Shown here piece by piece: positions 1,100-30,776 of a stretch of DNA of 33,700 nt. Position 1 is the stretch's first letter. Each line of letters begins with the position of its first letter. The notes under the pieces are model-generated. The model made no database searches and was not told the DNA's origin. It saw nothing but the letters and a program-made list of their open reading frames with translations. Made by a program: the position numbers and the translations under genes. Origin of the DNA: Hyella patelloides LEGE 07179 (GTDB taxonomy: Bacteria; Cyanobacteriota; Cyanobacteriia; Cyanobacteriales; Xenococcaceae). The stretch spans positions 1 through 33,700 of the forward strand of contig NZ_LR213815.1 of NCBI RefSeq assembly GCF_900659865.1, read 5' to 3'.

Positions 1100-1580
1100 A
1101 TTGCCCGTTTTCTAGTCCTTTTGTTTTTGTTCTCTGACATAAACCGCGTCCAGTTTGAAGGTAACAGATGCACTCGATCTCGCGACTCTTATGAGAAGTT
1201 GCGTTTTAAGGTGTCCATCTTTACCCTGTAAGCTTCGACTTTTTAAGGCGGAGTACCTTCGACTCATATCGCCTTGTTGAAACCCATAGTTTTTAAAGTA
1301 TAGCAATACGTAATTTGTATTAGGACACTTGCTACTACGACGCGATAGCGAGTCCTTTAGGGCTACTTACGAATATTTAACTAAACTTGTCCCAACAATC
1401 AACTTACTGCGATAACTATTCGAGGGATTTGCGACCCTGCGGAATTCGTACTCGCGCTCCCGCGAGCCTTTGACGACCTGCAAAGGAGCGTACACCGTTA
1501 GGGAATAGAGACTGAGAATATCAAATTGCTTCTAAAACAAAACGACCGTTCTCTATTGGAACACGGTATCAAATAACGAG
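1100..1580. repeat. Gene-free gap rich in GC-biased palindromes and dispersed repeats
   Basis: The gap between the acetyltransferase and the hydroxylase holds several short GC-rich repeats in otherwise AT-rich DNA. There is a direct repeat CTTCGACT (about 1226 and 1257), an imperfect palindrome between GGCG and CGCC at about 1247-1273, a hairpin with arms CTCGCG/CGCGAG near 1452-1467, and a second with arms CCTTTG/CAAAGG next to it. A copy of the AGTCCTTTAGGGC element is listed separately. A 64-codon open frame on the minus strand in this gap (1112-1306) is built from these repeats and is not called as a gene. Confidence 0.6.
1331..1367. repeat. Copy of the dispersed AGTCCTTTAGGG element
   Basis: The core AGTCCTTTAGGGC is at 1351-1363, preceded by CGACGCGATAGCG, closely matching the copy at 17302-17326. 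The hexamer GCTACT occurs on both sides (1331-1336 and 1362-1367), which could be a short target duplication or chance. Confidence 0.6.
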
Positions 1581-8956: not shown

Positions 8957-9019
8957 GAGTTTGGCTCGCGATATTGGGAACGCCCTAAAGGACTCACCGA
9001 TGGTCGCGCGAGTTTGGCT
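8957..9019. repeat. Dispersed AGTCCTTTAGGGC element, minus orientation, between 10-bp direct repeats
   Basis: The reverse complement of AGTCCTTTAGGGC is at 8982-8994. The decamer GAGTTTGGCT occurs at 8957-8966 and 9010-9019 and brackets the core, as a target duplication might. Confidence 0.65.
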
Positions 9020-16238: not shown

Positions 16239-18890
16239 TTACTTACTCTTAGCCTCCAAACTTTCCAATCGACTCTTCAAATCTTGATTGTCTTTTTTCA
16301 ACTTATCCACTTCCTGACGTAACTCCTTCACTGCTTTATCGCTACCGATATTTTTCTGTACCTTTTCGATAGCTTCGTCGGCTCTTCTTTTGACTCTTCC
16401 ATCGGGAGTTTGTGCGGAAAGATTTTGCAGGATACCGATAGCTTTTGGTGTTTGCATTTGTCCTAAAGCACCAGTTACCGCTACTTGAGTGAGGAAGAAA
16501 CTTTCACCAGAGAGAGACTCTAATTGTTCTAAAATTGTCTCGATAGTTTCGGGAGTTTGACCAGAAGAAACTGCACCTAAAGCGCGAATAGAGGCTAGTC
16601 TTAAAGCTTGGGGTGTATCTGGTTTAGTATATTGAATAATGATATCTACCGCATCAGCAGATGTAGTCATTTTACTCAAACCACCTATTGCACCACTTCT
16701 TACCGTTTCATTCCAACCAGCGCGGGTATTAAGGATATCTTGTAACAAGGTAATGGTTGCTTCCTTTTTATCTTTGAGGTTTCCCGATACCATTCCTCCT
16801 AAACATCTAGCTGCGGATGCTTCTGCGTAATAACTAGCATCACCTTTTTCAAGACATTCTTTGATAGTTTCGTAAGAAGACTCGGTTTTAAAATTACTCA
16901 ACGCATCAATAACAGCGCGACGCACTCTTGCATCTTTATCCTGTAACCCTTTAATTAATGCATCTTCTGCTTGATTGAGTTTGATTTTACCCAAGGTTTT
17001 GGCGACTTCTACTCTTACTCCCCAGAAAGTATCTTCTAATAAGGATGCGGATAAAGCTTTAACAACTTCTAAACCGCCTTTTTTTCCTAATGCTTTGGTT
17101 GCGTAGATGCGAGATACAGCATCAGTATCGTATTTGAGTTGATTTTTTAATTGGGTAACGGGATACTCTAGCTTAACTGTCTTGAGAATATAGTTATTAA
17201 CATCAAAGCTAATGAAGTCGGGTTTCTTTTCTAGAGGGAAATAAAAGGTTTGTTTTTGTTGATGTATCCGTAAGGGCATCTCTTGGTGAGCATTCCCTTG
17301 CGCGACGCGGAGCGAGTCCTTTAGGGTCTGTCGCCGACGCGGGGTCTCACCGCTTTCGCGAAACGCCCCTACATCGTCTATATAACCAAATGCAATGGGA
17401 ATTGTGAGATCGAATAATTCACTATCACTACCAGTCTTATCGTCTTTAGCTTGAGTTTGAGTAATAGTTAACTTCGCTAACTTGCTCTTATTGTCCCAAG
17501 AATAAGCTACTTTATAGTCGGGATGTCCACCACGAAAGACATATTGATCGAACAAACCAGCTAAGTTGTAACCTGTAGCTTTATCGATCGCTCGTAATAA
17601 ATCTATCGTCTCTACTGTCTTATGGGCGTTGTCGTTTACAAAAGTATGAATTGCTTTATCAAACAGTTCATCACCGAGAATTCCCCTTATCATGTGATAA
17701 ACACAAGCACCCTTTTCATAGAGGTGACGGTCATACAGTTCGATCGCTTCTCGGTATATATTGGTAACAATGGGACGACGGTAACGAGAACTATCTTCGC
17801 TTAAGTAACTTCTTGCTTCATTGAGAAGATAATAGGCTGCATCTTCTTTACCATATTCTTCCTCTGTCCATAATACCTCCGCGTAAGAAGCCATCCCCTC
17901 TTTGATCCAAGCGTGTGACCAGTGCTTAATTACTACTAAATCACCGAACCATTGATGGGCTAGTTCGTGTAATACTAGACTCTCAGTACGCATATTATCT
18001 ATAGCAGCACGTTCGTCTAATAAACAACGGTCAGTTAATAGGGTAGTGGAAGTATTTTCCATTCCCCCAAATATGAAATCACCAACGCAAACTTGGGCAT
18101 ATTTAGGATAGGGATAGTCGTAACCGTATTTTGCTGATAAATACTCTACCATGCGGGGAGTTTTACCCATACTTATCTTGGCTTCGGTTTCTTTTCCCTT
18201 CTCTACATAATAGGTAACGGGGATATCTTTCCAAGTATCTTTTAATTCTGCAAAGTCTCCTACAGCAAGAGTCATTAAATAAGTAGGATGAACTTGCTTT
18301 TGATGCCAATGATATACCTTATCTTCCCCTACAGTCTCGGTGCTAACCAATTCCCCGTTGGACACCGCCATATATTTTCCTGGTACTCTTACTTTAATTT
18401 CTGATGTGGCTAATTGACCAGGATAATCGAAACAAGGAAACCAAAAGCGCGAGTCTTCATCTTCTCCCTGTGTCCATACTTGGGTTGGTTTATCGGGATA
18501 ATGTTCGTCTGGTTGAATGAAATAAATACCCCGTTGGGGATGATCTACACTATAAGTAATTGCAATATCTATCTTGGCTTCTGTGGTGGGTTGCAATAAA
18601 TCTATCTGTAACCTTTCTCCGTCGTAATCAAAAGGTTGACTCACTTCACTAATTAAAACCGATTCAATATTTAGATCGACTGCATCTAGATTAAGCTGTT
18701 CGATACCCTTGCGTACAGGAGTAATCGTAATCGTACAAGTACCTGTAAAACTTTGGTTGGGGATATCCAAGTTTAAATCTAATAGTATATGATTTACCTG
18801 CCCAGGGCGATCGGGATTGTAGTGGGGTTTTGCTCCTGGAAGTTCAAAGGATTTAGGTTTTTTCTCTTCGGAATCAAAGTATAAGGACAT
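16239..18890 (-). CDS. M1-family aminopeptidase with C-terminal HEAT repeats and a repeat-derived insertion
   Basis: The 883-residue zinc aminopeptidase removes N-terminal residues from peptides. The N-terminal beta domain leads to the substrate-binding GGMENTST (275-282), the zinc site HELAHQW (308-314) and the third ligand in WIKEGMASY (E331). After the catalytic part come HEAT-like helices from about 580 (KALGKKGGLEVVKALSASLL, GLQDKDARVRRAVIDALSNF) and a terminal coiled coil (LRQEVDKLKKDNQDLKSRLE). The start is ATG 18890 (MSLYFDSEEKKPKSF); a TTG 14 codons upstream is less likely. Residues about 507-541 come from a GC-rich dispersed repeat inserted in frame between FGYIDD and the strand LRIHQQKQTFYFPL. 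All catalytic residues lie before the insertion, so activity may persist. Own terminator downstream. Confidence 0.95.
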   Translation of the reverse strand: MSLYFDSEEKKPKSFELPGAKPHYNPDRPGQVNHILLDLNLDIPNQSFTGTCTITITPVRKGIEQLNLDAVDLNIESVLISEVSQPFDYDGERLQIDLLQPTTEAKIDIAITYSVDHPQRGIYFIQPDEHYPDKPTQVWTQGEDEDSRFWFPCFDYPGQLATSEIKVRVPGKYMAVSNGELVSTETVGEDKVYHWHQKQVHPTYLMTLAVGDFAELKDTWKDIPVTYYVEKGKETEAKISMGKTPRMVEYLSAKYGYDYPYPKYAQVCVGDFIFGGMENTSTTLLTDRCLLDERAAIDNMRTESLVLHELAHQWFGDLVVIKHWSHAWIKEGMASYAEVLWTEEEYGKEDAAYYLLNEARSYLSEDSSRYRRPIVTNIYREAIELYDRHLYEKGACVYHMIRGILGDELFDKAIHTFVNDNAHKTVETIDLLRAIDKATGYNLAGLFDQYVFRGGHPDYKVAYSWDNKSKLAKLTITQTQAKDDKTGSDSELFDLTIPIAFGYIDDVGAFRESGETPRRRQTLKDSLRVAQGNAHQEMPLRIHQQKQTFYFPLEKKPDFISFDVNNYILKTVKLEYPVTQLKNQLKYDTDAVSRIYATKALGKKGGLEVVKALSASLLEDTFWGVRVEVAKTLGKIKLNQAEDALIKGLQDKDARVRRAVIDALSNFKTESSYETIKECLEKGDASYYAEASAARCLGGMVSGNLKDKKEATITLLQDILNTRAGWNETVRSGAIGGLSKMTTSADAVDIIIQYTKPDTPQALRLASIRALGAVSSGQTPETIETILEQLESLSGESFFLTQVAVTGALGQMQTPKAIGILQNLSAQTPDGRVKRRADEAIEKVQKNIGSDKAVKELRQEVDKLKKDNQDLKSRLESLEAKSK
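17270..17372 (-). repeat. Dispersed GC-rich repeat embedded in the aminopeptidase coding sequence
   Basis: About 103 bases differ sharply from the AT-rich surroundings. On the minus strand the block begins GTAGGGGCGTTTCGCGAAAG and ends GATGCCCTTAC, so its outer arms GTAGGGGC and GTAAGGGC (the end read in reverse complement) are near-inverted repeats. Inside is the core AGTCCTTTAGGG (plus strand, 17315-17326), preceded by GCGACGCGGAGCG as in the copy near 1338. The reading frame stays open through the whole block. Confidence 0.8.
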
Positions 18891-19015
18891 AGGGAGTTGA
18901 GTAAAGTTACGGATAGATATTATCTTACTCAATTTGTCATCGTTACATCGTGAAGCTACACAATAACTAAAGTCCTTGGTTATGATATTGGATGCAACAA
19001 ATGATATGAATTTAT

Positions 19016-20085: not shown

Positions 20086-20110
20086 GTAGGGTGGGCAATG
20101 CCCACCCTAC
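20086..20110. repeat. Left REP palindrome of the RAYT unit
   Basis: A perfect palindrome with 12-bp arms (GTAGGGTGGGCA and its complement) around a central A. The tetramer GTAG, the sequence RAYT enzymes recognise next to REP stems in enterobacteria, also precedes it at 20083-20086. Confidence 0.92.
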
Positions 20111-20681: not shown

Positions 20682-20706
20682 GTAGGGTGGGCATTGCCCA
20701 CCCTAC
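20682..20706. repeat. Right REP palindrome of the RAYT unit
   Basis: The same 12-bp arms as the left copy around a central T, so this copy is the exact reverse complement of the one at 20086-20110. It begins three bases after the transposase stop. Further on, at 20785-20797, a hairpin with arms CAGCC/GGCTG sits in the 180-base gap before coaE. Confidence 0.92.
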
Positions 20707-29000: not shown

Positions 29001-30776
29001 TTAATAAAGATATCCTGATGTTTTGGGTTGGGATTTTTCGACAAAAGCTAACCACAGAGGGAATTTTAAAAGACCTAAATTAACTAACTCTTCTGTTTCA
29101 TCAATAATTATCAGAGGTAATAACTTGTCTTCTAATAGACGATCTGCTCTTTGTACCAAAACATCAGCCGATTCAAATAAAACCACACCGCGATTAGAGC
29201 CAAAATCATTACGAGAAATTCCCAAACAATCTTGTAAACCTCTGCGCCATTCCCCTAGCTTTTCGGGGGTATCTACTAAAACAAGAATCCGACAGCGATC
29301 GCGATAAAGCCGATACAGAACTGAAATAACCGCCGAAGCTACTAAAATATTCTGTAAACGAGAGCCCATCCCTTTTATTGCACCTCGTCCGCCTTGACTA
29401 AAGAACCATTCTTGAACTCTTTCTGCGTGAACTGGCTCAAAAGTGCGTCTTAATTGCCAAGGAGAGCCATAATAATCTGGTCTAGTACGATATTGTTCTA
29501 AAAGCTGACGAATACGTCTTGTTTGTTCCGCAAATGCTTGTTCTGTAAATTGGGGTTGAGAACTAGCTTCTGGTGGTCTATTGCGGGGTTTTCTGTCTTC
29601 TCTGGTCGCTCTAGTTTCCCTTTGGGGGGGTCTTCTTCTCTCTTCTGGTTTAGGTAATTCCAGACTTTCTGCTGCGGTAGCTAAGTCTTGTAAGCTACCC
29701 ACTAGATATTCTTTAAAGCCTTGAATTCTCACGGCTAAATCTTGAGAAGCTCCTGCAAAGTTAGTTCGCATTTCTTGACGAATTCTCTCTCTACGTCGTT
29801 CCAGTTTCTCAATATCAATTAAAAGGTTATTTTTGCGTTCTTTAAGTTCTCGCGTACCTTCTTGTACCATACGCCCCAAACTATCCCCAATTGCTTGAGT
29901 TTGTTGAGCGATCGCTATTTCTTTTTGAGCTTGAAGATTACTAATTTCTTCTAACAAAGTTGCTTTTTGCTGTTTTAGTTCTGCTATCTGAGAGGATAAG
30001 TCTTGATGATGTTTATTTTGTTCAATTGACGCAGAAGAAAGCTTTTCTGATTCCTCTAACCAACTATCAGCAATTAGTTCAGGCTCTGAAGTTGATTTTT
30101 CTGTTATAGATTCTTCATCTGGAGTTTTAGTAATCTCAGGCTCTTTGATTTCAGTTTCTGGGAAGTTGAATTCTAATTCTGTTTCTAAAGTGTGTTTTTG
30201 TACTTCCTCAGTTGATTCTGTTTCTAAATTATCTAGCACTTGTTCTGTTTGTGAGTTGCTAGATTCTATCTCTTTGTTATCTACTGTTGGCTCTATTTCT
30301 TTGGTATTTACTTTTAAATTATCCAGTACTTGTTCTGTTTGTGAGTCAGTAGATTCTGTTTTAATAGTATCTACTATTGGTTTGATTTCAGTTGCTTCAA
30401 CTTTTGAATTATCTAAGATGTTTTCTATTGCTGAATCATCAGATTTAGCTGTTGAATTATCCAGTGAGGTTTCTTGCTCTACTTTAGTAGACTCTGACTC
30501 TAAGCTATCTGTTTCTGATGTCCAAGATGCTGTTTTAGGATCGTCTGAATCTGTTTGTTGTGGTATGTCTATAACTTCTAGATCGTCATCCAGCCAAATA
30601 TCGGATAGTGGCTCTGAAGTATTATTCACAGAAGATGCTGCTTTTTTAACCTCCTGTTTGATTTTTTGCTGTTCCTCTGGGGTTATTTCTTCGTAAGCGA
30701 CATCAATTTCCATTTCATCACTATCAAAAGCTTCAGGAAAGTCTGATTTTGGGTTTTGAGGTCTTTCGGAATTCAT
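29001..30776 (-). CDS. DUF3086 protein with a long acidic repeat region
   Basis: The 591-residue protein is cyanobacterial in type. The first 255 residues are acidic and probably disordered, with two and a half copies of a 30-residue tandem repeat (120-190). A coiled coil follows at about 260-335 (SSQIAELKQQKATLLEEISN to RRRERIRQEMRTNFA). The C-terminal part, from about 415 (RIRQLLEQYRTRPDYYGSPW) through WFFSQGGRGAIKGMGSRLQN to the end, matches the DUF3086 domain as I know it. Function is unknown. Its usual neighbour, a DUF3119 gene, lies directly upstream on the same strand after 67 bases, supporting the call. Predicted soluble, perhaps a scaffolding protein. Confidence 0.85.
   Translation of the reverse strand: MNSERPQNPKSDFPEAFDSDEMEIDVAYEEITPEEQQKIKQEVKKAASSVNNTSEPLSDIWLDDDLEVIDIPQQTDSDDPKTASWTSETDSLESESTKVEQETSLDNSTAKSDDSAIENILDNSKVEATEIKPIVDTIKTESTDSQTEQVLDNLKVNTKEIEPTVDNKEIESSNSQTEQVLDNLETESTEEVQKHTLETELEFNFPETEIKEPEITKTPDEESITEKSTSEPELIADSWLEESEKLSSASIEQNKHHQDLSSQIAELKQQKATLLEEISNLQAQKEIAIAQQTQAIGDSLGRMVQEGTRELKERKNNLLIDIEKLERRRERIRQEMRTNFAGASQDLAVRIQGFKEYLVGSLQDLATAAESLELPKPEERRRPPQRETRATREDRKPRNRPPEASSQPQFTEQAFAEQTRRIRQLLEQYRTRPDYYGSPWQLRRTFEPVHAERVQEWFFSQGGRGAIKGMGSRLQNILVASAVISVLYRLYRDRCRILVLVDTPEKLGEWRRGLQDCLGISRNDFGSNRGVVLFESADVLVQRADRLLEDKLLPLIIIDETEELVNLGLLKFPLWLAFVEKSQPKTSGYLY
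30207..30419 (-). repeat. In-frame 90-bp tandem repeat inside the DUF3086 gene
   Basis: Residues 120-149 and 150-179 are two copies of a 30-residue unit beginning (I/V)LDN and ending SQTEQ; a partial third begins VLDNLETEST at 180. The DNA shows the same 90-bp period (30330-30419, 30240-30329). Copy number may vary between strains. Confidence 0.85.

Follow-up and report, generated by a model that had tools for sequence, protein, structure and literature searches.

The window, that is, the whole 33,700-nt stretch of Hyella patelloides LEGE 07179 DNA that was analyzed, carries on its reverse strand a gene for an M1-family aminopeptidase with C-terminal HEAT repeats. The open reading frame extends over 16239-18932 (reverse strand) with a listed TTG start at 18932, and from the ATG at 18890 the product has 883 aa. 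The assignment is given by Pfam (Peptidase_M1 with 196.9 bits, plus Peptidase_M1_N and HEAT_2), by an HEXXH motif at residue 308, and by the Foldseek matches of the structural model, which are M1 aminopeptidases and TAF2 (7edx_B). The gene, the repeats within it and the other elements of the window considered here are the following:

16239-18890, reverse strand: M1-family aminopeptidase with C-terminal HEAT repeats (Pfam, HEXXH, Foldseek)
17270-17372, reverse strand: composite repeat, 103 nt, in frame; residues 506-539 correspond to bases 17274-17375
17354-17372, reverse strand: module A, left 19 nt of a 28-nt GTAG palindrome (GTAGGGGCGTTTCGCGAAA), intact at L143 in the same genome
17327-17353, reverse strand: module B, left 27 nt (19 copies by pattern, three without C)
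17303-17326, reverse strand: module C, 24 nt (CCCTAAAGGACTCGCTCCGCGTCG), with 138 exact cores in the genome; absent from three B copies
17279-17302, reverse strand: module B, right 24 nt (same pattern search)
17270-17278, reverse strand: module A, right 9 nt (TGCCCTTAC), with the same split in L007; the last 6 nt are common with the host
8983-9006, forward strand: further C copy (ACCGATGGT variant), intergenic (window search)
1338-1362, reverse strand: further C copy (25-nt GCTATCGC variant); the longest ORF through it has 84 aa
20152-20679, forward strand: REP-associated tyrosine transposase, 175 aa (NCBIfam NF047646, 192.7 bits against a cut-off of 80; PF01797)
20086-20110, unstranded: 25-nt GTAG palindrome left of the transposase gene (palindrome scan)
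20682-20706, unstranded: 25-nt GTAG palindrome right of the transposase gene (palindrome scan)

The preliminary description had placed a GC-rich block of 103 bases with near-inverted ends inside the M1 gene, and its coordinates were exact. The GC content of the block is 0.631 against 0.395 in the remaining gene, and the M1 frame stays open through it. Two of the six reading frames are open across all 103 nt; the M1 gene uses one of them (VGAFRES...PL), which yields a peptide of 34 aa at residues 506-539, DVGAFRESGETPRRRQTLKDSLRVAQGNAHQEMP. The ends, GTAGGGGCG and TGCCCTTAC, are complementary at 7 of 9 bases. The last six bases of the block, CCTTAC, are host sequence too in the relative L061, which makes it uncertain where the outer palindrome ends on the right. 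Used as a query against the 8.06-Mb genome (an assembly of 675 contigs), the block had 49 matching places at E <=10, and 43 of these lay below 0.001. The second-best match, in an unrelated place, was 96% identical over 74 nt (E 4e-28). These matches, together with 138 exact copies of the core CCCTAAAGGACTC (on the opposite strand AGTCCTTTAGGG), where the reversed control has 2, identify the block as a repeat, as had been claimed; its mobility we infer. In addition, a search for the insert peptide, which had been suggested as a check, found the same or near versions in further ORFs and reading frames across the genome.

The block had been taken for one repeat inserted in a loop. Repeat and insertion stand, whereas the comparison of copies points to three nested repeats, C within B within A (28 + 51 + 24 = 103), and to an old loop that was partly replaced. 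Each module is also found alone elsewhere: A intact, B without C in 3 of its 19 copies, and C by itself. The intact A is a 28-nt palindrome, GTAGGGGCG|TTTCGCGAAACGCCCCTAC at L143, where the bar marks the position at which B sits in L007 and, on the other strand, in the M1 block. The left 19 nt of A gave, with up to two mismatches, 21 strand matches in the genome against 0 for the reversed control; since a palindrome matches both strands, these amount to about 15 places. Six copies of the palindrome with exact arms are dispersed in the genome.

In 15 of the 19 pattern-found copies of the 51-nt module B, the arms have at least six perfectly complementary bases beside a core, and in the remaining four they have 1 to 3. 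Six versions of the arms were observed (GGTGAG, GGTGCG, GGTCAG, GACGAG, GATGCG and TTCGAG); as they stay complementary, the arms change in step. The copies without C are one of the two in L003 and those in L022 and L241.

Module C was analyzed at 100 distinct sites of the 138. Its length could be parsed at 83 of them, being 24 nt in 55, 25 nt in 10, 26 nt in 17 and 31 nt in one, and 17 were not parsed. The bases that follow C in 82 parsed sites are CGC in 66 and CAG in 10. The exact 24-nt difference that C makes is seen in B and in metH. A conserved hairpin for C was considered and rejected, with energies from -0.2 to -4.7 and a basal GAC/GTC pairing that is broken in the copies ending in ATCG. 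The 25-nt variant (GCTATCGC) often lies within AAGTAG...CAGTAGCAAGTAG-like tracts (L163-L165, L169, L180, L201, L221, L226), as if these were its own target.

With regard to distribution, the C core was found in 16 of 26 same-family relatives (1 to 31 copies, the single copy of G006 being equal to the control), in none of the 33 genomes outside the family, and not in the same-genus genome G001. Palindromes with GTAGGGGCG arms were present in 32 of 60 genomes, with up to 75 copies: 23 of 27 in the family, own genome included, and 9 of 33 outside it. The reversed control gave 0 in 59 genomes and 1 in G027. As to the candidate mover, the genome has eight Y1_Tnp loci, and the scan used found a GTAG palindrome at none of the seven others. 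The arms beside the window transposase, GTAGGGTGGGC, are different from those of A, and for this reason A is linked to the transposase by kind. The candidate in the window belongs to the kind of REP-associated tyrosine transposase that most likely moved A.

Homologues of the M1 protein were matched in 58 of the 60 genomes (own included) at E <=0.001, some of them weakly, and in many of them the alignment runs to about residue 520 and resumes at about 548. The gap predicted at the insert was thus recovered: the 34-aa segment is absent from all 29 aligned homologues and from all 69 pattern-readable loops among 80 named homologues (11 were not read), a set that overlaps the former. Furthermore, the case that the preliminary description had set against its own reading, namely the same residues without the repeat DNA, was not seen among the homologues examined. 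The nearest named homologues, from Xenococcaceae MAGs (L061-L064), have a plain turn at this position, e.g. SATQTYT. In a FastTree phylogeny of 26 proteins with the loop removed, the window protein groups with L062 (0.97), then with L064 (0.84), L061 (0.98) and L063 (1.00), all of them without the block. As these four neighbours are insert-free, the block would most simply have arisen on the branch of the window. Outside the group (0.93) stands L065, whose M1 turn contains another palindrome, and L035 (G002), farther off, has there a GTAG-type palindrome with something inside.

The net gain with respect to L061 is only 81 nt, and 103 is not a multiple of 3. Given this difference, about 22 nt of the old turn were lost or rewritten, and the insertion was not a clean one. 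In the comparison with L061 no target-site duplication was seen at the M1 site, and a clean insertion with target duplication was rejected on both counts. It should be noted that the block also falls outside the MITEs, which combine terminal inverted repeats with such a duplication.

The AlphaFold2 model of the M1 protein, run on an alignment of 38 sequences (mean pLDDT 79.7), places the insert in a beta-hairpin turn after the catalytic domain, between strands 495-503 and 534-542, and residues 507-532 have pLDDT below 50. This prediction agrees with the low-order surface loop that had been proposed behind the catalytic domain. The low values carry modest weight, since the insert shares them with stretches of the catalytic domain (277-287, 321-325 and 367-389), which also fall below 50. 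The insert is, then, probably a disordered surface loop of 34 residues at a beta-hairpin turn.

The M1 gene with its insert is under continued purifying selection. The dN/dS of the window gene was 0.097 versus L061, 0.087 versus L064 and 0.086 versus L063, and that of L061 versus L063 was 0.097; the value of 0.034 against the sister L062 cannot be relied on, as dS is 2.6 there and synonymous sites are saturated. The private codon changes were 39 synonymous and 12 not in the window gene versus 35 and 9 in L061 (Fisher p 0.81). No sign of decay was observed, and with dN/dS of about 0.09 a pseudogene was rejected.

Among the 100 distinct C sites, 14 lie in ORFs of at least 240 aa, two at the edge of such an ORF (L184, and L152 at 859, both excluded from the 14), and 84 in no ORF that reaches 125 aa. 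Family matches flank the site on both sides or span it in 11 of the 14: the M1 gene, four NRPS genes (L007, L025, L166, L182), MetH (L156), CobN (L178), SMC (L196), a STAND-WD40 protein (L209), a DUF1822 protein (L220) and a VapE-like protein (L029), the second family match of the latter being below the cut-off. As for the remaining three, the C copy is near one end in L005 (a porin) and in L203, and in L168 it probably precedes the true start of ModB, whose family match begins at residue 79 or 82. The copies within genes occur in both orientations. All 12 that could be parsed are 24 nt long, and of the 71 parsed copies at other sites 43 are (Fisher p 0.007); this bias is partly built in, because a frame-shifting copy would not turn up in an open ORF, and it was dropped as a proof of selection.

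The metH gene provides a direct comparison. In the orthologue of G015 the palindrome GTAGGGGCGTTTCACGAAACGCCCCTAC stands bare; here the palindrome has C in addition, with exactly 24 nt inserted. Some other members of the family have GTAG palindromes of other kinds in the metH loop (L246, L249) and also in the cobN loop (L263, L264). Short tandem-looking tracts are found in place of palindromes in the cobN loop of L260, L261, L262 and L266. The SMC insert lies in a linker that is variable among the 10 homologues covering it. In NRPS adenylation domains (L145, L166, L182), GTAG palindromes with differing cores occupy one and the same loop, directly ahead of LYKTGDL or QTGDL, and that of L166 has C inside.

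Palindromes without B or C were also found in genes. In this genome five of six are in long ORFs, in a sample that comes from stretches chosen around A and C hits and is not a random one; by the same rule, 5 of 31 are in long ORFs in the stretches of relatives. The five are in NRPS genes (L145, L182), in nifN (L152), in metH for a second time (L156), and in L154. The last one (1445-2230) encodes a pyruvate:ferredoxin oxidoreductase whose family match ends at position 935 of 1167; the ORF stops shortly past its GTAG-type palindrome, and no frame of the same strand encodes the rest of the protein in the sequence that follows directly. We rejected it as an ordinary in-gene palindrome, the gene being truncated. 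It is broken at that point, and such elements are not always tolerated in genes. Of the five long ORFs in relatives, two, L299 (1202-1903) and L303 (1256-1957), resemble REP-associated transposases below the family cut-off, and have an in-frame GTAG palindrome after the HUH motif.

The nifN gene of this genome (L152, 946-2349) contains a GTAG palindrome with neither B nor C. Eight relatives in the family have a nifN that covers the site (L312-L318 and L330; the partial L319 and L320 and paralogues of 32-36% were left out of the count), and all of them have a segment at the position of the palindrome, of the same length as here except in L315, where it is longer. The identity of the palindrome is 1.00 here, 0.86 in L312, L315 and L318 (0 of 500 shuffles as good) and 0.79 in L313 (4 of 500); in L314, L316, L317 and L330 it is weak or no better than chance (24, 36, 33 and 425 of 500 shuffles, respectively). 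Five homologues outside the family (L331-L335) showed no palindrome above chance. A GTAG palindrome has long belonged to the nifN of this family and has decayed to a varying degree in the relatives. Its arms are GTAGGGGCG here, while those of most relatives begin with GTAGAGAC; either the palindrome was replaced in place or both arms changed together.

Taken together, these results make it very probable that a GTAG REP palindrome entered the M1 gene, that B and C came to be nested in it, and that the resulting loop has been tolerated under purifying selection. On the branch leading to this genome, the GTAG-tagged palindrome A would have entered the gene at the beta-hairpin turn, replacing part of the old turn; B, a repeat with inverted arms, would then have been placed within A, and the 24-nt C within B. 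The composite keeps the frame open and yields a predicted surface loop of 34 residues, presumably a neutral addition that the enzyme tolerates.

Alternatively, A, B and C could have been assembled elsewhere and have come as one unit, by transposition or by gene conversion from an ABC copy. The NRPS gene at L007 has precisely such an arrangement, in which B likewise interrupts A after base 9. However, the B arms of the two copies differ (GGTGAG versus GGTCAG), L007 has a further insert, and each of the modules occurs without the others, so that we consider this course possible but doubtful. It is improbable that the loop has been exapted, the peptide or a DNA or RNA hairpin being selected for enzyme regulation or mRNA stability. 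Such a role would fit with the purifying selection on the M1 gene and with the recurrence of GTAG palindromes in the same loops across several lineages, but the nearest named homologues manage without the insert, its predicted order is low, and repeats of this kind are found in unrelated proteins. Assemblers fail at repeats, and an artefact of assembly or binning could be suspected in so fragmented an assembly; we regard it as very improbable, since both flanks encode one continuous aminopeptidase, and the 13 other C copies in long ORFs and the exact 24-nt difference of metH from its orthologue would not be expected from misjoins. Finally, loop length varies among the M1 homologues, but an old variable loop that resembles the repeat by chance is refuted by the 74-nt match to an unrelated place and can be practically dismissed.

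The recurrence of palindromes at the same positions allows a further, tentative reading next to the nested insertion in the M1 gene. Certain surface loops in this cyanobacterial family might serve as reusable slots: in nifN, cobN, metH and the M1 gene, one kind of GTAG palindrome after another would take up the same codons, each displacing its predecessor in place, and the 24-nt (8-codon) repeat would enter the palindromes with the frame kept. If this were true, selfish DNA would, throughout the history of the family, have supplied proteins with new peptide loops and renewed existing ones.

GTAG-tagged REP and REPIN palindromes with their RAYT transposases are the system to which A is best compared (PMC3733652, PMC6006769 and PMC3116915). 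Like these REPs, which are dispersed palindromes of 20-40 nt with a GTAG end, A is a dispersed 28-nt palindrome starting with GTAG, and the genome has a REP-associated transposase flanked by REPs. In contrast to them, the palindrome here encloses other repeats and the whole is in frame, certain loops in unrelated proteins have been occupied repeatedly within a cyanobacterial family, and the arms of A are not those beside the window transposase.

Module C is, in turn, similar to the small dispersed repeats (SDR) of Nostoc, reportedly described by Elhai in 2008. SDR are about 21-27 nt long, insert precisely at a short target and are found nested. C is mostly 24-26 nt long, appears precisely inserted before a short motif (mostly CGC), and occurs inside other repeats as well as inside repetitive AGTAGCA-like tracts; the comparison is one of description only. 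Unlike the Nostoc SDR, the C core was found in only one family among the 60 genomes searched. For SDR5, a precise insertion in HIP1 is described in PMC4390886.

The preliminary description drew a parallel with the palindromic elements of Rickettsia, which holds. According to PMC2229807, those elements are in 19 protein reading frames, including one active enzyme with its insert, and in the tmRNA and M1 RNA genes. In both cases dispersed palindromic repeats lie in frame in conserved proteins and occur in RNA genes as well, and here one repeat, C, is intergenic as well as in frame in unrelated conserved genes (14 of 100 sites in long ORFs). The elements of this study are modular, of three repeat kinds, and cyanobacterial; they are likened to those of Rickettsia by way of working, not by sequence. 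The added remark that the phenomenon is rarely noted in cyanobacteria needs care. PMC3733652 lists cyanobacterial GTAG families (GTAG-12, -15 and -16) and describes intragenic REPs in several bacteria, and PMC6006769 reports REP insertions in genes of tnpA-REP subclass 2.4, which cyanobacteria have in abundance. REPs inside genes and the coding palindromes of Rickettsia are thus known, while the nested cyanobacterial form is new: a literature search that covered few subscription journals turned up no description of cyanobacterial housekeeping proteins in which nested repeats are read in frame.

These observations extend the protein-coding palindromic repeats to large-genome cyanobacteria and provide a layered case in which the order of nesting may be read. 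In aligned genes, nifN above all, a repeat-derived loop can apparently be traced from a perfect palindrome to decayed host sequence. As such genes show the loop from one state to the other, together with the layered nesting, the old question of selfish repeats as raw material for proteins becomes testable by comparison.

Two minor observations concern other repeats of this genome. Two cobalamin riboswitches (RF00174; L015 1398-1612 and L023 1444-1661, with 55.7 and 62.0 bits, respectively) have a B+C-like repeat in a peripheral stem, so that repeats of this kind are present in structured RNA too. In the window, positions 30222-30401 consist of two adjoining 90-nt direct repeats, 73% alike, which lie in overlapping ORFs of opposite strands.
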